DNA of 33,164 bases from Saprospiraceae bacterium (GTDB lineage Bacteria; Bacteroidota; Bacteroidia; Chitinophagales; Saprospiraceae). Every line of letters starts with the position of its first letter. Position 1 is the stretch's first letter. The position numbers and the translations under genes are program-made. The stretch covers positions 16,448-49,611 of the forward strand of contig JAHDGD010000009.1 in NCBI GenBank assembly GCA_020627825.1, written 5' to 3'. Shown piece by piece: positions 20,571 to 30,495 of this stretch. The notes under the pieces were generated by a model. That model was not told the origin of the DNA. It worked only from the letters and a program-made list of their open reading frames with translations, and did no database searches.

Positions 20571-23500
20571 ATGACTAAGAAACTTACACTTTTATTTTTT
20601 CTTCTGTGTATTTTCTCTGCCTCTGCAATCGCTCAAACTGTTCTTCAAGGACAAGTTGCGGATGAGGATGGTGGAGTAATAGGAGCGAACGTGTTTTTAT
20701 TTAAAAACGATGTTCAAGTAAAGGCAGTGCCTACTGACTTTGATGGAAATTACATTTTTACGAATATCGATCCAGGTACTTATGACATTGAGGTAAAATC
20801 TCTCGGTTTATCGACTCAGCGTATCACTGGAGTTGTTGTTTCTGAAAACAGTACAACTAAAGTAAACATCGACATGGTTGCTGAGGGAACCGTTTTAGAT
20901 GACATTGTCATCAAAGCGTATGAAGTTCCGCTTATCAGCTTTGACCAGACTTCATCTGTGAAAACAGTAACAGCTGAAGCTATTGCCAATTCACCTTTGA
21001 AATCTGTCCAAGGGCTAGCTGCAACTTCAGCTGGACTTTCTTCAGATGCAGATGGGAATATTTCGGTTCGGGGTATGCGTGCCAATGCTACGAACTATTA
21101 TGTTGATGGTATTCGTGTGACAGATGTTGGACTATTGCCAGCGGCAGAAATTGAACAATTACAGGTCATAACAGGTGGTTTAGCAGCGCGATATGGTGAT
21201 GTTACGGGTGGGGTTATCTCCCTTACATCAAAAGGTCCAAGCGAGAAGTTCTCAGGTGGATTTGAAGCGGAAACATCTCAATTTCTGGACCCTTATGGGT
21301 TTAATTTCTTAAACGGGAATATCAGTGGTCCTATATATAAGAAAAACGGAAAATCAATTATTGGATTCCGTTTGAATGCACAATATGTTAGTCAATTAGA
21401 TGATAGACCTTCTGCGGTTGGTGTATACAGAATGCCTGAAGAAATCATTAGAGATTTGGAAGAAACACCAAATTTCGAAATCGATGGGGTTTCTTTTCCT
21501 AGAGCAGAGTTATTAAATGAACAAGACCTTCCATCTCCTCTTAAAACTCGACCTAATGAAGATCGATATGATCTTGACATAACAGGTAAAATTGATGTAA
21601 GATTTAGTGAGAATATTGATGTATCAGTTTCTGGTATTTATGGAATTGATCGTAATCGATTTACTCCAGGTGGAGGATTCGGGTTACTAAATTGGACGCG
21701 AAATCCCTATGAGTATGGGAATAACTATAGATTAAATGCGAGATGGAGACATAAAATTGGAAAACAAGGTTTACCTGAAGAAAAAGTAGAAGGTAAATCT
21801 CCTACATTGATTCGTAATGCATCTTATATCTTGCAATTTGGAGTAGAAAATGTATTCCGTTATAGAGAAGATGTAATTCATGAAGATAATTTCTTCGATT
21901 ATGGATTATATGGTACTCAAGAAGTTACTTCGAATCCAGTTGCAGGATTCGTAAATGGTGAAGAATGGAATGGACCAGGAATGATAGAAACACCATTTGG
22001 TTTTGTTGATCACAATTCATTTTCACAAAACTTTTCGGCTTTTTCGCCAACAATAAATGAGAATGGAGACGCAAGTCCTAATCCAGTATTATCTCAATAC
22101 CAAGAGATCAATGGTCAACTTGTTGGAACTGCAGTGGATGTGTGGGGAAATCGATTTTTCGACAATGTGGGAAGGGTGTATAACAATTACAGAAAATTTG
22201 ACAATACAAGGTATACAGTAAATTTTGATGCACAACTTGACATCTTACCAAGTGGATCTATAGACAATAGACACAATATTCAATTTGGTGGTACATATGA
22301 GCTAAGATCTAATAGAAGATGGGAAATAAGTCCTAGAGAATTATGGACAATGGCAAGAGATGCAGCTAATTCACATTTTATTGCTGGAGTTGACACAAAT
22401 ACAGTTACAGGTACTATATTCAATGGTCAACCACCTTTTGACAATTTTGAATTTCAAGAATATGGTAGATTGATCGAAATTGATGAAGATAAATTATTCT
22501 ATCAATCAATAAGAGAACAACTTGGTTTAAGCCTAAATGACTTTGTGAATATAGATGGAACTGATGTTATTGCAAATGGTCTATCTCTTGATATGTTTAG
22601 TGCGAGCGAATTAATTAACTGGAGACAATTGGGATTAGATTACTATGGGTACAATTACAAAGGAGAAGTGTCCAATGGTGGTTCATTCAATGATTTCTTT
22701 ACTGCAGTTGATGAAAATGGAAGAAGAACATTTGAAGTTGCTCCACTTACACCAGTATACATTGCAGGTTATATTCAAGATAAATTCTCGTATGAAGATA
22801 TTATTTTAAGAGTAGGAATTAGAGCAGATTACTTTGATGCAAATACACGTGTTGTTGAAGATCCATATTCTTTATATGCAATTGAAACAGCAGAAGAATT
22901 TGCTGACAGAAGAGACGTAAGTTTCCCTACATCAGTTGATCCCAATGCAAAAGTTTATTTAACGGGAACAGATAAAGAAAACGATGCAGTAAAGGCCTAT
23001 AGATTAGGCGATGATTGGTTCTTGCCAGATGGAACAGCAACTGACGCTCAGCTGATTTTTGGAAGTGAGCCAGTTACTCCTTCGTTCCGTTTTTCAGAGG
23101 AAGAAAATAATATTCAAAGTAGAACATTTAACCCTGATCAGAGCTTTGTTGATTATGATCCAGCGTTTAATGTTACACCGAGAATCTCTTTATCATTCCC
23201 TATTTCTGAGGAAGCAGGATTCTTTGCTCACTATGATCAATTAATTCAAAGACCTTCTTCAAATACAGCATTTACAGCATTGGATTATTTCTTCTTTGAA
23301 GATATCGCTCGATTAAATCCTAATGGGGCTCCTGCAAATAATCCAAACTTGAGACCTGAGACAACAATTGATTATGAGGTTGGATTCCAACAAAAATTGA
23401 CAAATTCTTCATCTCTTAAATTGAATGCTTACTATAGAGAGAATAGAAATTTAATACAAACTAGATTTATCTTAAATGTTCCTGTTGTTACGGATTACTT

Positions 23501-24233
23501 GACATTTGATAATATTGATTTTGGTACAGTAAAAGGTTTTACTGCAACATATGATTTAAGAAGAACTGGAAACATTTCAATAAATGGTAGTTATACGTTA
23601 CAATATGCAGAAGGTACAGGATCTAATTCAAATTCAGGCTTATCATCTCGAAATGGTGAAGTAAGAGTTCTTGTTCCTCTTTCATTTGATGAAAGACACC
23701 GAATAGTGGCAAATATTGATTACCGATATGCTTCAGGTAAAGCTTATAACGGACCACGAATCTCAGGTATGAACATCCTTGCAAATACTGGATTAAATTT
23801 TCAAGTATCTGCGATCTCTGGAAGACCATACACTAGAGCAAGTACCATCAACACTCCTTTCAACTCTTCAGGATTTACTGGAGACATCAATGGAGCTAGA
23901 TTACCTTGGAATTATAACATAGATATGCGTTTGGATAGAAACTTCAATATTAAACTAAACGAAAACAGTGATAGAGGACTTAACTTCAACGTGTATTTAA
24001 GAGTTAGTAACTTATTGAATACTAGAAATGTAGTTAGTGTTTACAGAGTTACAGGATCACCAGATAATGATGGTTATCTAGCTACTCAATTTGGTCAAGA
24101 TGCTATTAATGCTGTAGAAACATCAGGTAAAGATGTTCAGAGTTTCTTAGCAGCTTATGAGTGGGCTTTATTAAATCCAGGTTTTTATTCTCTTCCAAGA
24201 AGAATAAGAGTAGGAGGAATTGTTAATTTTTAA
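20571..24233 (+). CDS. TonB-dependent receptor with N-terminal carboxypeptidase-regulatory-like domain
   Basis: A 1220-residue outer-membrane receptor. The signal peptide ends after SAIAQ near residue 22. Residues about 23-110 form a carboxypeptidase-regulatory-like (CarboxypepD_reg) beta domain (LQGQVADEDGGVIGANVFLF). The plug domain follows (about 125-235), with VRGMRANATNYYVDGIRV and the closing ITGGLAARYGDVTGGVISLTSKG (read in parts). The rest is the beta-barrel, ending RRIRVGGIVNF with the terminal Phe typical of Bam clients. The substrate is unknown and no SusD-like lipoprotein is beside it. Instead a 1344-residue T9SS-type protein and a PorV/PorQ-like protein follow at short distances (31 and 26 bp), so the three are probably one operon ending at the terminator at 29418. 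Confidence 0.93.
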   Translation: MTKKLTLLFFLLCIFSASAIAQTVLQGQVADEDGGVIGANVFLFKNDVQVKAVPTDFDGNYIFTNIDPGTYDIEVKSLGLSTQRITGVVVSENSTTKVNIDMVAEGTVLDDIVIKAYEVPLISFDQTSSVKTVTAEAIANSPLKSVQGLAATSAGLSSDADGNISVRGMRANATNYYVDGIRVTDVGLLPAAEIEQLQVITGGLAARYGDVTGGVISLTSKGPSEKFSGGFEAETSQFLDPYGFNFLNGNISGPIYKKNGKSIIGFRLNAQYVSQLDDRPSAVGVYRMPEEIIRDLEETPNFEIDGVSFPRAELLNEQDLPSPLKTRPNEDRYDLDITGKIDVRFSENIDVSVSGIYGIDRNRFTPGGGFGLLNWTRNPYEYGNNYRLNARWRHKIGKQGLPEEKVEGKSPTLIRNASYILQFGVENVFRYREDVIHEDNFFDYGLYGTQEVTSNPVAGFVNGEEWNGPGMIETPFGFVDHNSFSQNFSAFSPTINENGDASPNPVLSQYQEINGQLVGTAVDVWGNRFFDNVGRVYNNYRKFDNTRYTVNFDAQLDILPSGSIDNRHNIQFGGTYELRSNRRWEISPRELWTMARDAANSHFIAGVDTNTVTGTIFNGQPPFDNFEFQEYGRLIEIDEDKLFYQSIREQLGLSLNDFVNIDGTDVIANGLSLDMFSASELINWRQLGLDYYGYNYKGEVSNGGSFNDFFTAVDENGRRTFEVAPLTPVYIAGYIQDKFSYEDIILRVGIRADYFDANTRVVEDPYSLYAIETAEEFADRRDVSFPTSVDPNAKVYLTGTDKENDAVKAYRLGDDWFLPDGTATDAQLIFGSEPVTPSFRFSEEENNIQSRTFNPDQSFVDYDPAFNVTPRISLSFPISEEAGFFAHYDQLIQRPSSNTAFTALDYFFFEDIARLNPNGAPANNPNLRPETTIDYEVGFQQKLTNSSSLKLNAYYRENRNLIQTRFILNVPVVTDYLTFDNIDFGTVKGFTATYDLRRTGNISINGSYTLQYAEGTGSNSNSGLSSRNGEVRVLVPLSFDERHRIVANIDYRYASGKAYNGPRISGMNILANTGLNFQVSAISGRPYTRASTINTPFNSSGFTGDINGARLPWNYNIDMRLDRNFNIKLNENSDRGLNFNVYLRVSNLLNTRNVVSVYRVTGSPDNDGYLATQFGQDAINAVETSGKDVQSFLAAYEWALLNPGFYSLPRRIRVGGIVNF

Positions 24234-24264
24234 TTGAATAGAATTAGATAAAATATAAATTATA

Positions 24265-27200
24265 ATGAAAAAAATTATAATCATATTCTTAGCCTTTTTT
24301 GCATATACTTCGGCTTATAGCTATGTTGATCGAGGTGCGAAATCGAAAAAGAAAAATACAACCATCAACACGAGAGAAGATTGTGTAGAAGGAACGGAGA
24401 GAGCATTACAAAATATTAATAACGTAAGAGCAACCCTTCTATCTTCTGGTGATGTGTGGTGGAATTTACAAGAAGGACAATACATCGTACCGAATACACC
24501 TCCGGAAATTCAAGATGTTTCATCGCTTTTCGCTGGTTCGGTATGGATTGGTGGATATGAGCCAATTGAAGGAGGTGAAGATATTTTGAAGATAGCTGCA
24601 ACAACATATCGTCCAGGTGGTGACTGGTATCCAGGTCCACTTGATGATGATACAGGTACAACGGATGACGTTGTGTGTTCACGATGGGATCGATTCTTCG
24701 AAGTAACAGGAGACGAAATTGATTTACACCGAATTAATTACAATAAATTTAAGTTAGCAGGTCAAGACTATCCGAAAGATTCTATTCCTGATAATGTACG
24801 ATTTTATCCTGGACTAGGGAATGTAGATTTCCCTATAAAATATGGATTTCAGCTACCTGATGCAGGTCAAGGATTAGGTGCTTTCTATGACCATCCAGAT
24901 TCACAGATTGATATTTATGATCCTGAAAATGGAGATTACCCAGTAATCGAAGTAAGAGGATGTCAAGATTTTGGACCTCAATATCCTGATCAGATGTTTT
25001 TTTGGATTTATAACGATCAAGGTGGACCTCACTTAGGAACAAATGGTGAGGCTATTCAAATGGAAGTGCAAGTCCAAGCATTTGCATATGAGTCAAATGA
25101 TGAGTTGAATGACATGACTTTCCAACGATACAAACTGATTAACAGAGCGCAAACAGTAATTGAAGATTGTTATTTTGCAATGTGGGTAGATGGTGACTTA
25201 GGATGTAGTGAAGATGATTATATAGGTTGTGATACAACTAGATCACTTGCGATTTTATATAATCAGAATGAAGTAGATGGTGATAATGGAGTAAATTGTT
25301 CAACAGGTGCTGCAACGTATGGAACAACTGTTCCAATCCTTGGAATTGATTACTTTAGAGGGCCACTTAAACCTCAGAAATTTGATGCTGATGGAAATTT
25401 AATGGATTTAACAGATCCTTTCGCAGAAGCAGATACTTTTGTTGAATTGGGTATGTCGTCTTTTGTTTATACGAACAGACAGGGAGCTGGAGAGCACCCT
25501 CCTGGGACATTTGATGCACAAACAGCTCTTGAACATTATAGATTATTAGATGGTCAATGGAGAGATGGGTTAGCTATTACAAGAGGAGGTTCAGGATATA
25601 ACATTGGATCAACTGATACCATTCGTTACGTTCTACCTGGTGCACCAAGTAATGATAATGAATGGTCTATGTGTAGTGCAAACTTAGGTTTTGGTGATAG
25701 AAGAACCATTCAAGCATCAGGACCATTTATCTTAAAGCAAGGAGCTGTAAATGAATTGATCATTGGAGTAGCTTGGGTTCCTAACCAAGTTTACCCGTGT
25801 CCTGAACTAGGTGCATTGAACAAGGCAGATGATTTAGCACAAGCATTATTTGACAACTGTTTCCAAACGCTGGATGGACCTAAAGGACCAGATGTTGATG
25901 TTGTTGAGTTGGACAGAGAAATCATCATCTTATTATCCAATGATACATTACTTTCAAACAACGCTTTCGAACAGTATTCTGAAGTTGACATTTTTGCAAC
26001 AGACTCTATTGCAAAATCATTACCAGATGAAGAAAAGTCATATAATTTTGAGGGATACATCGTGTATCAATTATTTGACCCGAACGCTTCTTCTGCATTA
26101 GATGATATTGAGCGTGCACGTATTGTAAGACAAGTTGATTTAACAAATAATATTACAACATTATACAACTGGACTTCACAGGTTAATCCGCTTCCAGGTA
26201 ATAATGAATTGGTTTATACACCTGAAAGAGAAGTGGTAGGAGGCGACGCAGGGATTCAGCATTCATTCAGCATCACTCAAGATGCCTTCAATCAAGGTGA
26301 TACAAGGTTAATCAATCATAAAGAGTATTATTATTTTGTAATAGCTTATGGTTATAATGAATATGCACCTTTTGATCCTCAGACAGGATTAGGACAACAA
26401 CGTCCTTTCATCAGTGGTAGACAATCATTTGGAGTAGTTACAGTCGTTCCTAGACCTATAGTCTATGATCAATTAAATACGGCATATGGCGACGGACCAA
26501 AAGTTACTCGAATATCAGGAGTAGGAAATCAAGGTAAATTTTTATTACTAGAGGATGGCATGCATGAGCGTATCATAGCTAATAATGAAGTGTCTGATGT
26601 TGAATACAAAGATAATGCAGGTCCACTGGAAGTTAAAATTGTAAACCCAGTAGATGTAAAAGATGGTAAATTCAGATTAGAAATTATTGGAGAATTTGAT
26701 GATGATAGTGGTAAAATGCTTGCTACAGATAATTCAAGATGGGTATTGACTGATTTAGAAAATAATGACGTATTTACAAGTAGAGGAAATCTAGAAGATA
26801 TTAATGAACAAATTATCAGACAATATGGATTTTCCTTAACGATCTATCGTCAAGAAGATGTGAGTGATGAGCCAGGTGAAACACCAGGAGCAGGTACTTT
26901 TGTAGGTGCAACTGTAGAATATGATGATCCTAATGGTCCAAGCTGGTTATCTTTCGTTCCAGCTGGAGGGTTTAATACATTACCTCCAGTTTATAATCAA
27001 TTTTATGCTTTTGTAAATCCAGAAGATGAGGCAGAATTTGATCCAGAAGGATTATTTGCAAGCGCTGGGGGAACAAATGTAATACCTCTTAAATTGGCTG
27101 ATTTTACAAGACCTTTGGTTACACCAGCATTGCGTAATAATCAGGCGATTGCAGGAAATGTACAATCGAATAGTTTGGAGATGGGAGATCTTAATAATGT

Positions 27201-28299
27201 GGATATTGTCTTTACATCCAATAGAGAGAACTGGAGTAAGTGTATAGTTGTTGAGACTTCACATAGAGATTTCTACGATGCGGGTTATAGTCAAGAAGGA
27301 GCTTCCACTCAATTGGAAATTCGTGATGCAACATCTTTAGGATTAAGTGCTGATTCCGATGGAAATCCAAGACCTTCTAGTGATGGAACAACTGGATTTG
27401 GATATTTCCCTGGATATGCTATTGATGTTGAAACAGGTGAAAGATTAAATATATTCTATGGTGAGAATTCTGTGTATGGAAGTGGTATTGATGGAACTAG
27501 TTCAGCAGGTCGTGATATGGCTTGGAACCCGGAGTCATCACTTATAATACCTACTCCTGAAGGAAGACCATTATCTATTTATGATGCATATACTGGAGGT
27601 CAACATACTATTTATGTAACAAGAACCACATATGATGGATGTGAATCTTTAGTACCATTTTTTGAAAATAGTGCGCCGTTGAATAGAGTCTTAAGAGGTC
27701 TCGGTACGATCACGTGGGCTGGTATTCCTCTTCCAACAGAGGAGTTATTGTCATACGGAGATGGATTAATTCCTAACGATGTGACAGTTCGACTTAGAGT
27801 TGATAATACATTCGGAAGGGAACAAGAAGATGAAGATGGAAAATTTGAAGCAGCTGGTGATAATCCAGTATATGAATTTGAATTAAGAGGAAAAGAAGCT
27901 GTTCCAGTAGATGAAACTACAATTGATGAAGCATTGTCGAATGTAAATGTAGTACCAAATCCATATTACGCTGCATCATCTTATGAAGTAGATCAAAATG
28001 ATGCTCGGGTAAAAATTACAAATGTACCATCTAGATCAACAATTACAATTTATTCGTTGGATGGAAGGTTTATTGCTCAATTTAGAAGAGATGCTACACG
28101 TACTCCGGTGAATAGACCAACGGCAAGTGTCAACTTCTCACAAGAAGGAGCAAGTGTTGTATGGGATTTAAAGAATAGTGCTGGTATACCTATTGCAAGT
28201 GGAGTGTATATTATTCATATTTTGGACGAAGATACAGGTGCACAAAAATCTGTGAAATGGTTCGGAATTAACCGTAAATTCGATCCTAGTGGATTATAA
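24265..28299 (+). CDS. Large exported protein with T9SS type A-like C-terminal domain
   Basis: A 1344-residue exported, acidic protein. The signal peptide spans about 1-19. The N-terminal region (about 35-150), with NNVRATLLSSGDVWWNL, LFAGSVWIGGYEP, ATTYRPGGDWYPGPLDDD and later conserved Cys, resembles a module found at the start of many large Bacteroidota surface proteins. The centre has long beta-rich, Asp- and Asn-rich stretches without an enzyme motif that I recognise. The C-terminal about 100 residues look like a T9SS sorting or FlgD-Ig-type domain: NVVPNPYYAASSYE, ITNVPSRSTITIYSLDGRFI, VVWDLKNSAGIPIASGVYII, ending VKWFGINRKFDPSGL (read in parts). It is probably exported by T9SS to the cell surface. 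Its function is unknown. Confidence 0.85.
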   Translation: MKKIIIIFLAFFAYTSAYSYVDRGAKSKKKNTTINTREDCVEGTERALQNINNVRATLLSSGDVWWNLQEGQYIVPNTPPEIQDVSSLFAGSVWIGGYEPIEGGEDILKIAATTYRPGGDWYPGPLDDDTGTTDDVVCSRWDRFFEVTGDEIDLHRINYNKFKLAGQDYPKDSIPDNVRFYPGLGNVDFPIKYGFQLPDAGQGLGAFYDHPDSQIDIYDPENGDYPVIEVRGCQDFGPQYPDQMFFWIYNDQGGPHLGTNGEAIQMEVQVQAFAYESNDELNDMTFQRYKLINRAQTVIEDCYFAMWVDGDLGCSEDDYIGCDTTRSLAILYNQNEVDGDNGVNCSTGAATYGTTVPILGIDYFRGPLKPQKFDADGNLMDLTDPFAEADTFVELGMSSFVYTNRQGAGEHPPGTFDAQTALEHYRLLDGQWRDGLAITRGGSGYNIGSTDTIRYVLPGAPSNDNEWSMCSANLGFGDRRTIQASGPFILKQGAVNELIIGVAWVPNQVYPCPELGALNKADDLAQALFDNCFQTLDGPKGPDVDVVELDREIIILLSNDTLLSNNAFEQYSEVDIFATDSIAKSLPDEEKSYNFEGYIVYQLFDPNASSALDDIERARIVRQVDLTNNITTLYNWTSQVNPLPGNNELVYTPEREVVGGDAGIQHSFSITQDAFNQGDTRLINHKEYYYFVIAYGYNEYAPFDPQTGLGQQRPFISGRQSFGVVTVVPRPIVYDQLNTAYGDGPKVTRISGVGNQGKFLLLEDGMHERIIANNEVSDVEYKDNAGPLEVKIVNPVDVKDGKFRLEIIGEFDDDSGKMLATDNSRWVLTDLENNDVFTSRGNLEDINEQIIRQYGFSLTIYRQEDVSDEPGETPGAGTFVGATVEYDDPNGPSWLSFVPAGGFNTLPPVYNQFYAFVNPEDEAEFDPEGLFASAGGTNVIPLKLADFTRPLVTPALRNNQAIAGNVQSNSLEMGDLNNVDIVFTSNRENWSKCIVVETSHRDFYDAGYSQEGASTQLEIRDATSLGLSADSDGNPRPSSDGTTGFGYFPGYAIDVETGERLNIFYGENSVYGSGIDGTSSAGRDMAWNPESSLIIPTPEGRPLSIYDAYTGGQHTIYVTRTTYDGCESLVPFFENSAPLNRVLRGLGTITWAGIPLPTEELLSYGDGLIPNDVTVRLRVDNTFGREQEDEDGKFEAAGDNPVYEFELRGKEAVPVDETTIDEALSNVNVVPNPYYAASSYEVDQNDARVKITNVPSRSTITIYSLDGRFIAQFRRDATRTPVNRPTASVNFSQEGASVVWDLKNSAGIPIASGVYIIHILDEDTGAQKSVKWFGINRKFDPSGL

Positions 28300-28325
28300 T
28301 TTAATAAACTCTTGAATTATTAAAA

Positions 28326-29390
28326 ATGAAGAATAAAATATTAATTATAGTATTATTAATCCTTCCTGCTTTAAGTTGGGCTGGAAATCCAGATCGACAA
28401 GGTGAGGCAGGTGCTTATGAATTATTATTAAGTCCATGGGCAAGAGCTGCAGGATTAAATTTAATGAATACAGCCACAATAAGTGGTGTGGAAGCTATGA
28501 GATTAAATCCTGCTGGACTTCACTTTGATGGGAAGACGGAATTCAATTTTGGTCATATGAGATTGTATCAAGGTGCAGGAATTAGTATGAATGCTGGTGG
28601 ACTAGCATTTAAAATTGGTGAGAATGGCACAATTGGATTTTCTATAGCTGCAATGGATTTTGGGGATATTGACATTACAACAGAAAATCAACCAGGAGGA
28701 ACTGGTGGTACATATTCTCCAAATTTTATTCAAGGTGGTGTAGGATACAGCCATAGTTACAAGGATAAAATTTTTGTAGGCGTTTTATTTAGAGGTGTTT
28801 CGGAGACGATTATTGATGTATCTGCTTTCGGAATTGCTATGGATGCTGGTGTTCAGTATAGAGGCGGGAATGATGGTCAGTTGAGATTAGGAATCTCAGT
28901 GCGTAATGTTGGACCAGCTATGACGTATAGAGGAGAGGGTTTATCCCAAGAGGTTGAGTTAACAACACCACAAACAAACAGTTATTTTCTTACGGGTTAT
29001 GTGAGAGCAGCTAAATATGAATTACCTACAATGCTAAATTTAGGAGTCTCTTATGATCTAAAATTTGTTGGAGGAAGAGACTACTTGAGATTAATTGGTA
29101 ATTTTACTTCCAATGCATTCTCTAGAGATAATATTGGATTAGGAGCAGAATATTCATTTAAAAATACAGTTCAATTAAGAGCTTCTTACAAGCTGCCATT
29201 AGGAACAGTTGCTGAAGGATTAGATGATATTTATACAGGTCTTAGTGCAGGATTTTCTGCAAGTTTTCCTACTAGAAAGAAAATGGAAGGTAAACCTGAA
29301 CCAAGTCGATTTGCTATTGATTATGCTTATAGAACAACTCAGCATTTTCAAGGTACTCACAATATTGGAATCAGATACAATATCTTTTAG
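28326..29390 (+). CDS. PorV/PorQ family outer-membrane protein
   Basis: A 354-residue FadL-like barrel protein of the PorV/PorQ family. A signal peptide ends after LSWAG near 20. The family signature follows: RQGEAGAYELLLSPWARAAGLN and then VEAMRLNPAGLHF (about 25-66, the NPAGL motif). Glycine-rich strands fill the rest (GTIGFSIAAMDFGDIDI, GGVGYSHSYKDKIFVGVLFRG), and the end is HNIGIRYNIF. PorV shuttles T9SS cargo from the translocon to the attachment complex, and PorQ-like relatives are linked to secretion. This copy stands directly after a large T9SS-type protein, so it may serve that cargo. That link is inference from position. The core T9SS genes are not in the window. Confidence 0.9.
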   Translation: MKNKILIIVLLILPALSWAGNPDRQGEAGAYELLLSPWARAAGLNLMNTATISGVEAMRLNPAGLHFDGKTEFNFGHMRLYQGAGISMNAGGLAFKIGENGTIGFSIAAMDFGDIDITTENQPGGTGGTYSPNFIQGGVGYSHSYKDKIFVGVLFRGVSETIIDVSAFGIAMDAGVQYRGGNDGQLRLGISVRNVGPAMTYRGEGLSQEVELTTPQTNSYFLTGYVRAAKYELPTMLNLGVSYDLKFVGGRDYLRLIGNFTSNAFSRDNIGLGAEYSFKNTVQLRASYKLPLGTVAEGLDDIYTGLSAGFSASFPTRKKMEGKPEPSRFAIDYAYRTTQHFQGTHNIGIRYNIF

Positions 29391-29417
29391 TACCTAGCTA
29401 AACATATATTTTAGTTT

Positions 29418-29460
29418 AAAAGTGGTTTATTGCTTAACAATAAACCACTTTTATTTTTTA
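29418..29460 (+). terminator. Strong intrinsic terminator after the receptor/T9SS/PorV-like cassette
   Basis: AAAAGTGGTTTATTG (29418-29432) and CAATAAACCACTTTT (29438-29452) pair perfectly over 15 bp around a CTTAA loop, followed by ATTTTTTA. The stem and T-run are textbook. It closes the operon that starts at 20571 and insulates greA. Confidence 0.9.
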
Positions 29461-29626: not shown

Positions 29627-30100
29627 ATGAGTGACATTTTTTACATGACTCAAGAGAGCTATGATAAATTAAGCGATGAATTGGATGTCCTTAAATCGGA
29701 CGGTAGAGCTAAAGTTGCTGCAGCTATTGCAGAGGCTAGAGAAAAAGGAGACCTTTCTGAAAATGCAGAATATGATGCTGCAAAAGATGCGCAAGGCATG
29801 CTTGAGGCAAAGATCAATGAAATGGAGAAATCTTTAGCTAATGCCAGAATTATTGATGAAAGTGAACTGGATACTTCCAAAGTGACTGTACTTTCTAATG
29901 TTACCATTCGTAATGTTAAAACAAAACAAGAAGTTACGTATAAATTGGTTGCCCCCTCAGAGGCAGATTTTAAGGAAAAGAAAATTTCAGTAAAGTCTCC
30001 CATTGGTGAAGGATTACTTGGAAAAGCGGTAGGAGATATCGCAGAAATAAATGTACCAAGTGGGGTTATGCAATTCGAAATACTAAATATTAGTCTTTAA
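29627..30100 (+). CDS. greA: Transcription elongation factor GreA
   Basis: A 157-residue factor that rescues backtracked RNA polymerase by stimulating cleavage of the transcript 3' end. The N-terminal coiled coil (about 5-75) carries the acidic-tip signature EKGDLSENAEYDAAKDAQG (about 40-58). The C-terminal FKBP-like domain includes KISVKSPIGEGLLGKAVGD (about 124-142) and ends VMQFEILNISL. Length is as usual. The gap of 236 bp before it holds the cassette terminator and no other clear gene. The stop codon overlaps the start of the HIT gene by one base (TAATG), implying coupling. Confidence 0.97.
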   Translation: MSDIFYMTQESYDKLSDELDVLKSDGRAKVAAAIAEAREKGDLSENAEYDAAKDAQGMLEAKINEMEKSLANARIIDESELDTSKVTVLSNVTIRNVKTKQEVTYKLVAPSEADFKEKKISVKSPIGEGLLGKAVGDIAEINVPSGVMQFEILNISL

Positions 30101-30495
30101 TGGCTAGTATATTTTCGAGAATAGCTAGTGGTGAAATTCCTTCTTTCAAGATAGCAGAGAATGAAAACTTTTTTGCTTTTCTAGATATTAATCCACTCCG
30201 AAAAGGGCATACACTTGTAGTACCTAAACAAGAGGTTGATCATATCTTTGATCTTGATGATGATTTGTTTAGCGGGCTACACCTATTCTCCAAGCGGATT
30301 GCAAACGCAATATATAAAGCTTTTCCTTGTGAACGAATAGCATCAGCTGTGATAGGACTTGAAGTACCACATGCTCATATTCACCTTGTACCAATTCATA
30401 CAATGAAAGATATTGACTTTACGCAAGAGAAGCTAAAGCTTTCGTCTGAAGAAATGCAAGAAATTGCCAGCGCCATTCGTTCACATTTGAAATAA
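30100..30495 (+). CDS. HIT family hydrolase
   Basis: A 131-residue histidine-triad protein. The N-terminal FSRIASGEIPSFKIAENENFFAFLDINPLRKGH stretch (read in part, 5-37) is typical, with GHTLVVPKQEVDH following. The triad is HAHIHLVP at 91-98 with His91, His93 (expected nucleophile) and His95. Members hydrolyse or transfer nucleotide monophosphates, commonly adenosine phosphoramidates or dinucleoside polyphosphates. It is tightly coupled to greA, a pairing common in Bacteroidota. Confidence 0.95.
   Translation: MASIFSRIASGEIPSFKIAENENFFAFLDINPLRKGHTLVVPKQEVDHIFDLDDDLFSGLHLFSKRIANAIYKAFPCERIASAVIGLEVPHAHIHLVPIHTMKDIDFTQEKLKLSSEEMQEIASAIRSHLK

Follow-up and report, generated by a model that had tools for sequence, protein, structure and literature searches.

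Why would a bacterium encode a TonB-dependent receptor, a giant exported protein and an outer-membrane barrel one directly behind the other? The question is raised by a stretch of 33,164 nucleotides from a Saprospiraceae bacterium (assembly GCA_020627825.1, contig JAHDGD010000009.1, positions 16,448 to 49,611 of the forward strand), here termed the window. Its cassette comprises a receptor, a 1344-residue protein that we call the giant, and a member of the PorV/PorQ family that we call the cassette barrel. A preliminary description of this DNA had suggested that the three form a joint machine, with a barrel locked behind one cargo as a private secretion or anchoring route. We find a deeply conserved, co-duplicating three-gene system, best filed as a variant of the cargo-plus-dedicated-shuttle arrangement to which a TonB-dependent importer is added. 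As for its function, we give about even chances to one outer-membrane unit, in which a giant exported by the type IX secretion system (T9SS) would be held by its own barrel and would serve the importer, doing the job of SusD without a lipoprotein.

Conservation of the triad

Within the family, the giant is present in 57 of 61 genomes, the source genome included. The four misses are two genomes that are 87% and 74% complete and two that are nearly complete. All 29 family loci that were fetched (L008-L036, the best matches, all from other genomes) keep the order receptor, giant, barrel on the same strand, with the C-terminal part of the receptor upstream and the barrel downstream. Membranihabitans marinus (locus L177), placed by NCBI in the Saprospiraceae, falls within the family; the entries G221 and G368, the genome of this locus, show the same contig coordinates and were counted as one genome.

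Beyond the family, a giant profile run over 296 genomes of the phylum gave a match in 134 at 1e-10; many of the weaker matches cover the C-terminal domain (CTD) or other short parts alone, and stricter counts at 1e-20 and 1e-30 were added. The giant was found in 0 of 10 genomes of another family of the same order (f2) and, among 63 genomes that have SprA and belong to the same class but not to the family, in 2, from families f6 and f7 only. The remaining giant-positive genomes outside the family belong to other classes. We chose 39 outside regions (L074-L112) from the matches, nearly all of them long N-terminal ones, 37 from other classes and 2 from the same class. The full order is present in 36, with the receptor cut by a contig start or end in three. 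At L112 the contig ends before the barrel, and L103 is cut by the fetched stretch, its neighbouring fetch (L216) showing a receptor, a giant with a stop inside it, and a barrel.

A scan of named genomes widened the range to the FCB group. Its best 80 loci include, among others, Ignavibacteria, Rhodothermales, Neomarinimicrobiota, Latescibacterota, Handelsmanbacteria, KSB1, Calditrichota, Cloacimonadota, metagenome-assembled genomes of Flavobacteriales, and Saprospiraceae. The full triad was found in 62 of them, with median gaps of 28.5 and 15.5 bp. Five show one partner and a contig edge on the other side, and a sixth one-partner case (L172) is a contig of 3.6 kb with a split giant and, after it, the first part of a barrel. 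Where both flanks were present, none of the 80 had exactly one partner. The recurrence of the gene order, which the preliminary description had proposed as a check, thus came out in favour of a conserved arrangement, and a lineage-specific accident was rejected on the strength of the matches across the phylum and the named FCB genomes. At two loci of Neomarinimicrobiota (L162:1-5038 and L168:1-5018) we also observed a further receptor and a distant giant fragment, divergent and upstream of the triad.

The linkage is equally tight when seen from the barrel. A profile of the cassette-barrel family, run over 40 giant-bearing genomes, returned 47 matches of at least 363 bits, the next match scoring 249. 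Instead of lying mostly apart from the other two genes, the outcome that had been named as speaking against a joint system, 46 of the 47 barrels directly follow a giant, the giants having been located by a separate search of the same genomes. Between the 47th (G104) and the end of its contig of 67,687 bases there are 308 bases. These barrels, here called type A, occur once per genome in 33 of the 40 genomes and twice in 7. Taken together, the results support the three genes behaving as one unit in evolution. We found no earlier description of the triad in the open-access literature, in the parts of it that were available.

Two subfamilies and a matching tail length

Weaker barrel matches (212-247 bits with a broader profile) define a second group, type B, of which we took 19 neighbourhoods in 17 genomes of other classes; they come from the upper part of the match list, non-randomly, and the A/B label rests on the gap in barrel scores. 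All 19 have a receptor, a CTD-bearing giant of 1028-1280 residues and a barrel, in the same order. Many are followed by another protein with a CTD-like end (for example L196, TIGR04183 44.9 bits). The genomes G325 and G074 have ten barrel matches of at least 190 bits each, for part of which, at most, the triad is confirmed. At L208, one genome has two B triads that point towards each other, and each has a barrel of its own.

Trees of receptor, giant and barrel were built from 46 triads (27 A, 19 B), the receptor being limited to its last 520 residues because many B regions are cut. Each of the three trees separates A from B by a single change with support of 99-100. Path lengths across the three trees correlate with r of 0.82-0.95 within A and within B, a value that includes shared descent. 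Since receptor, giant and barrel split identically, the triad was most likely duplicated as a unit.

The end of the giant differs between the two groups. From the GxY motif to the C-terminal end there are 31-35 residues in 26 of 27 A giants (one could not be measured) and 23-24 residues in all 19 B giants. Giants with no adjacent barrel of their own form two sets: a long tail (29-34) is seen in L103, L217, L220, L221 and L222 and in the second giant of both L042 and L043, and an ending like that of ordinary type A cargo (22-24) in L218, L219 and L224. In L223 (29) and L225 (motif not found) the last loop is longer and the ending after it ordinary.

Since some extra giants without a barrel carry the same extended tail, one barrel may serve several cargos. 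This would fit the type B orphan cargos, which are reported to share one carrier (PMC12618676). The claim of a copy locked behind one cargo is too narrow. As separate observations, L217:2523-10920 holds three giants in tandem, all of them long-tailed and with neither barrel nor receptor adjacent, and in two family genomes (G004 and G049, loci L042 and L043) a second giant lies just behind the barrel, an arrangement of one carrier and two cargos.

The barrel is a fourth family member

The cassette barrel passes the PorV/PorQ family model NF033709 (124 bits, cut-off 90) and stays under the cut-offs of the equivalog models for PorV (NF033710, 43 against 250 bits), PorQ (NF033711, 69 against 220) and PorV2 (NF052325, 26 against 325). 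The true equivalogs of the same genome score 437 bits (PorV), 315 (PorQ) and 396 (PorV2); the true PorV adjoins PorU (1143 bits), and PorQ and PorV2 are located elsewhere. Because all three sit elsewhere in the genome, the cassette barrel is a fourth, separate member of the family, and a stray copy of the general PorV was rejected on the same ground. The family call of the preliminary description was correct. In a search of solved structures, the barrel profile matches PorV of F. johnsoniae (6h3i_F) at 4.6e-23 and TodX weakly, at 2e-4.

The giant: C-terminal domain and N-terminal fold

By sequence, nothing in Pfam matches the giant at E 0.1, and the ~130 residues at its C-terminus align with the end of the PorZ model (4e-8) and the end of the PorU model (0.004). 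Neither a type B CTD nor a PorP/SprF model was listed at E 0.1 for the three window proteins. A search of the source genome with this domain at E 10 returned it as sole match, and a giant-profile search of solved structures returned the end of PorZ at 0.011 and one chance-like match.

The predicted structure is more telling. Residues 541-1344 of the window giant were modelled (pLDDT 77.2, pTM 0.81), and the best match of the CTD is that of PorZ (5m11, Z 11.3, 91 aligned residues, root-mean-square deviation 2.5, 25% identity), PorU being next among T9SS proteins (Z 9.0). Foldseek gave PorZ at E 1.3e-5 and the NucA CTD in the translocon at E 0.05 (TMt 0.69). By its predicted fold, an Ig-like beta-sandwich like those of PorZ, PorU and NucA, the domain is a T9SS CTD in the wider sense, which agrees with the earlier call of an exported protein with a T9SS-like CTD; a CTD of a sort not used by T9SS had been named as a second outcome that would speak against the joint system. 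Near its end stands a lysine (Lys1331 in the window) that does not vary in any of the 29 family rows or of the 45 rows of a wider alignment. A near-invariant, functionally important lysine near the end of type A CTDs contacts PorV, according to PMC10994853.

For the N-terminal half we modelled the 1070-residue giant of the orthologous locus L116 (pLDDT 88.9, pTM 0.71). Residues 43-474 of this model resemble dextran dextrinase (9ju0, Z 19.8, 251 aligned, root-mean-square deviation 3.0), followed by glucodextranase (1ug9, Z 18.6), cellodextrin phosphorylases (~18) and GH116 chains (~17.5), at ~10% sequence identity. This fold goes by the name beta-supersandwich. After residue 474 the model consists almost entirely of strands with four short helices, and the helical catalytic barrel that lies behind the beta-sandwich in GH94, GH15 and GH116 enzymes is absent from it. 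Residues ~40-535 of the window giant probably share this beta-sandwich, as judged by alignment to L116. The earlier statement that the giant has no recognisable enzyme holds for its sequence; it needs qualifying in that the N-terminal half, via the L116 model, appears to share the fold of carbohydrate-active enzymes.

Residues 1-190 of the window model match fibronectin type III (FnIII) domains with Z of ~10. The region between FnIII and CTD is longer in the window than in deep lineages and poorly modelled in places; pLDDT falls below 50 in eight stretches of the window model, and the fold lists barely test this region.

Two further observations concern the N-terminal module. It contains a strongly conserved acidic motif, D.DLG...DD..G.D, at residues ~309-323 (25189-25233), possibly a metal site. 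A 532-residue protein of the same genome (L041:6217-7815, contig C179) pairs this module with an ordinary type A CTD (TIGR04183 26.1 bits, over the cut-off of 23), so the module is common to different CTD types.

The receptor and the secretion system

The window receptor carries a CarboxypepD_reg domain (E 6e-13) and a Plug domain that scores 47.3 bits against a Pfam cut-off of 23.9, which makes it a TonB-dependent receptor; TonB is encoded in the same genome. It has no close paralogue there, the next matches scoring at most 47 bits and being limited to the N-terminal ~230 residues. The SusC model TIGR04056 (cut-off 368) was not listed for it at E 0.1, and scores 63 bits in the orthologous locus L116. 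A sequence search of solved structures gave no match at 1e-3. The preliminary description had also considered that the receptor could signal. This finds no support and a signalling receptor was rejected, as Pfam lists no STN-type N-terminal domain.

In contrast to a SusCD pair, in which a SusD lipoprotein stands beside SusC, no SusD gene was found beside the window receptor among the neighbours scanned upstream and downstream, as had been described. The giant itself has no SusD match in Pfam and curated-model scans, and a lipobox-like motif is present in none of the 46 giants of the tree set, with none visible in the window giant.

In terms of secretion, SprA is over its cut-off in all 68 giant-bearing genome entries tested (67 distinct genomes, the source genome included), in a few of which (the genomes of L142 and L174, for instance) a complete triad is not seen. 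Among the 296 phylum genomes, SprA is found in 134 of 134 giant-positive and 94 of 162 giant-negative ones, with 68 lacking both, and at stricter giant thresholds in 74 of 74 (1e-20) and 56 of 56 (1e-30); this association is lineage-driven and is not a test of independent events. A secretion route free of SprA was rejected, as every giant-bearing genome examined has SprA. By this co-occurrence the giant is a candidate T9SS substrate.

A proposed importer unit and its alternatives

Gene order, co-inheritance, co-duplication, CTD fold and SprA co-occurrence are the observations from which we infer a unit. The giant's CTD, which is of the PorZ/PorU kind and carries a constant tail extension, would be taken up by the cassette barrel rather than by the general PorV. 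The giant would then not be clipped or released; it would remain on the barrel as its surface anchor, like PorZ on PorQ and type B cargo on PorP/SprF. Its beta-sandwich and FnIII domains would form the extracellular substrate-binding subunit of the neighbouring importer, touching the receptor and taking the part that the SusD lipoprotein has for SusC.

Retention is likely by analogy. The CTDs of PorZ and PorU are unprocessed and barrel-bound, and cognate PorV-like barrels are suggested to shield CTDs from cleavage, according to a review (PMC10202324). Type B cargo was found bound to PorP-like barrels (PMC9143113).

A role as surface importer subunit is suggested because the receptor is a constant partner, the giant has no lipobox, its N-terminal half has the fold described, and SusD is rare in barrel-rich genomes. 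The SusD-like family PF14322 is absent at 1e-5 from 13 of 22 genomes of other classes (median 0, with a PorV-family median of 9.5) and from all 10 named genomes, in which barrels were not counted. On the Bacteroidia side, 18 genomes have medians of 5.5 SusD-like and 3 PorV-family matches.

A ligand-binding function like that of SusCD is suggested indirectly, by the L116 fold and by the genes near some B triads, and a glycan-like ligand would be the likeliest. By a Pfam scan of ten chosen proteins, 3 of 19 B triads share their 12.5-kb stretch with glycan genes: GH130 with a sugar ATP-binding cassette (ABC) importer (L198), GH2 (L205) and a GH3 protein (L210). L212 has the layout of L198 by likeness of open reading frames (ORFs) only, and L206 has an F5/8C-domain protein. 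Also seen directly behind B triads was a protein with a PPIC-type prolyl isomerase domain (L198:3658-5163 and L212:6670-8223), followed in L198 by the sugar ABC importer.

Several points weigh against this proposal. The giant's TIGR04183 score, for the type A sorting domain, is 14.2 bits in the window, under the cut-off of 23, and at 21.2 bits the orthologue L116 is under it too. A shared fold of the N-terminal half by itself demonstrates no binding. The SusD contrast follows class lines, is uncorrected for phylogeny and covers one SusD family, and its PorV-family counts include the true PorV, PorQ and PorV2. The count of glycan genes is a raw one, the genes lie up to ~4.5 kb from the barrel, and the B loci behind the count were picked from the upper part of the match list. 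The single triad of the window sits among housekeeping genes and offers no substrate hint. As for linkage, at 12 of the best 80 named loci neither partner adjoins the giant; L221:4559-11490, outside the 80, is an exception with a receptor and a long-tailed giant and no barrel behind; and L088 has a giant with no receptor upstream, its downstream side ending with the contig.

Some of these points, together with others, lend themselves to different explanations. One that we consider unlikely keeps the giant and barrel as a true pair and makes the giant an adhesin or structural surface protein, the receptor being merely co-transcribed and importing something unrelated. FnIII domains, as predicted in the giant, are common in adhesins; the window neighbourhood has no nutrient context, and extra giants, some in tandem, stand without receptors. 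Against this, the receptor stays with giant and barrel over the whole FCB range and splits into A and B alongside them. Moreover, in the best 80 named loci it is missing wherever the barrel is missing, contig edges apart, and L221 keeps it with the giant even where there is no barrel.

Quite unlikely, in our view, is a unit that supports T9SS itself and does not feed the cell, for example by supplying secreted proteins with a sugar or lipid part, the way PorZ/PorQ do. The closeness of the CTD to PorZ and of the barrel to PorQ would suit it, as would the housekeeping-like single A-type barrel in most genomes and the greA gene found behind the cassette in about half of the family loci. However, the source genome already holds PorQ, PorV and PorU, 61 of the 63 SprA-bearing genomes that share its class but not its family lack the giant, and deep lineages have many further family barrels, with triads in all 19 neighbourhoods examined.

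We rate as very unlikely that the barrel is a FadL-kind uptake porin for a hydrophobic ligand, with the giant using the general PorV like other type A cargo. The weak TodX match and the description of PorV as a FadL homologue in PMC12578637 lean that way; the PorV match is much stronger, a CTD protein immediately precedes the barrel in 46 of 47 A cases and in all 19 B cases, and the cargo tail length shifts together with the barrel subfamily. Finally, that the giant leaves through the TonB-dependent barrel, or is assembled on it, in place of SprA is hardly credible despite the constant adjacency of receptor and cargo, as no giant-bearing entry or giant-positive sample genome lacks SprA, the giant's CTD has the predicted T9SS fold and the receptor plug is ordinary.

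The proposal of an importer unit held by its own barrel thus retains from the suggested joint machine the evolutionary unit, the distinct barrel and the T9SS-type CTD fold, with private secretion, retention and the complex being conditional parts of it. More tentatively, and at somewhat less than even chances, the triad may be an ancient FCB uptake class, present in perhaps ~10 copies in SusD-poor deep lineages where it would do the job that SusCD has in gut Bacteroidota. The window would then hold a single surviving copy in a SusCD-using family, and a length code at the CTD end would match barrel and cargo subfamilies.

If the proposal is true, the dedicated-shuttle rule, described for type B cargo in the sources available to us, extends to the PorV/PorQ family, and T9SS, viewed as a secretion route, becomes tied to the building of TonB-dependent importers. 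The many unnamed genes of the PorV-family, receptor and giant kinds that occur in FCB lineages, most of these uncultured, receive a role open to testing, and there is a hint as to how such lineages get by on little SusD or none. What carriers read in a CTD likewise becomes directly testable through the matched tail lengths.

The cassette in the window

The features are collected in Table 1. Gaps of 31 bp (receptor to giant) and 26 bp (giant to barrel) separate the three ORFs, and these values, the coordinates and the terminator stem reproduce the preliminary description exactly. The stem, followed by TTTTTT, is the longest among 12 terminator-like sites between 18500 and 31000, where shuffled sequence gives a mean of 5.6 (standard deviation 2.5). 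Promoter-like sites are at chance level, with 50 in the real sequence and 50.9 in shuffles.

Table 1. Features of the cassette, in positions of the window.
Feature	Position	Strand	Basis
TonB-dependent receptor, 1220 aa	20571..24233	+	ORF; CarboxypepD_reg residues 25-102, Plug 125-215; signal peptide by eye
Receptor plug domain, residues 125-215	20943..21215	+	PF07715, E 3.4e-12 (3e-12 when rounded)
Giant exported protein, 1344 aa	24265..28299	+	ORF; signal peptide by eye, no lipobox
Giant N-terminal half, ~residues 40-535, putative beta-supersandwich fold	24382..25869	+	alignment to modelled orthologue L116
Giant fibronectin type III-like region, ~residues 541-735	25885..26469	+	model of window residues 541-1344
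Giant T9SS-type CTD (predicted), residues 1215-1344, extended subfamily A tail	27907..28296	+	structure match to PorZ/PorU CTD
Lys1331, invariant lysine near giant C-terminus	28255..28257	+	alignments, 29/29 and 45/45 rows
PorV/PorQ-family outer-membrane barrel (cassette barrel), 354 aa	28326..29390	+	NF033709
Intrinsic terminator at cassette end	29417..29453	+	16-pair stem, then T run

By Pfam scan, the upstream neighbours are a carbamoyl-phosphate synthase and a D-2-hydroxyacid dehydrogenase, and the downstream ones GreA, HIT and a polysaccharide flippase-type protein. The greA and HIT genes lie 3' of the cassette at 29627-30495, and in the family greA likewise follows the cassette at 14 of 29 loci, as far as their short flanks reach. 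The source assembly has 4.46 Mb in 297 contigs and is 96% complete.

Comparison with known systems

The N-terminal beta-sandwich of GH94 phosphorylase, GH116 and glucodextranase has its fold in common with the N-terminal half of the modelled L116 giant (Z ~17-20). Unlike these enzymes, the L116 model has no helical catalytic barrel, and identity is ~10%.

With SusCD and RagAB the triad shares a TonB-dependent barrel with CarboxypepD_reg and a large surface partner, as well as a high copy number in some lineages and an occasional location close to glycan genes. It differs from them in that the partner is a non-lipoprotein with no SusD match and a T9SS CTD, a third gene encodes a barrel, and the receptor is not listed by TIGR04056.

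The PorZ-PorQ and PorU-PorV pairs have the CTD fold and the barrel family in common with the triad, and the PorZ and PorU CTDs stay unprocessed and barrel-bound, according to PMC10202324. Unlike PorZ and PorU, the giant matches just the ends of their models, and the source genome has separate PorQ, PorV and PorU.

Finally, type B cargo with its PorP/SprF-like shuttle in F. johnsoniae and P. gingivalis likewise has the barrel gene directly behind the cargo. There the barrel is proposed to deliver and anchor the cargo, and orphan cargos can share a barrel (PMC12618676, PMC9143113). Unlike that system, the triad has a barrel of the PorV/PorQ family, a CTD of the PorZ/PorU (type A-like) kind, and a receptor gene added to the pair.

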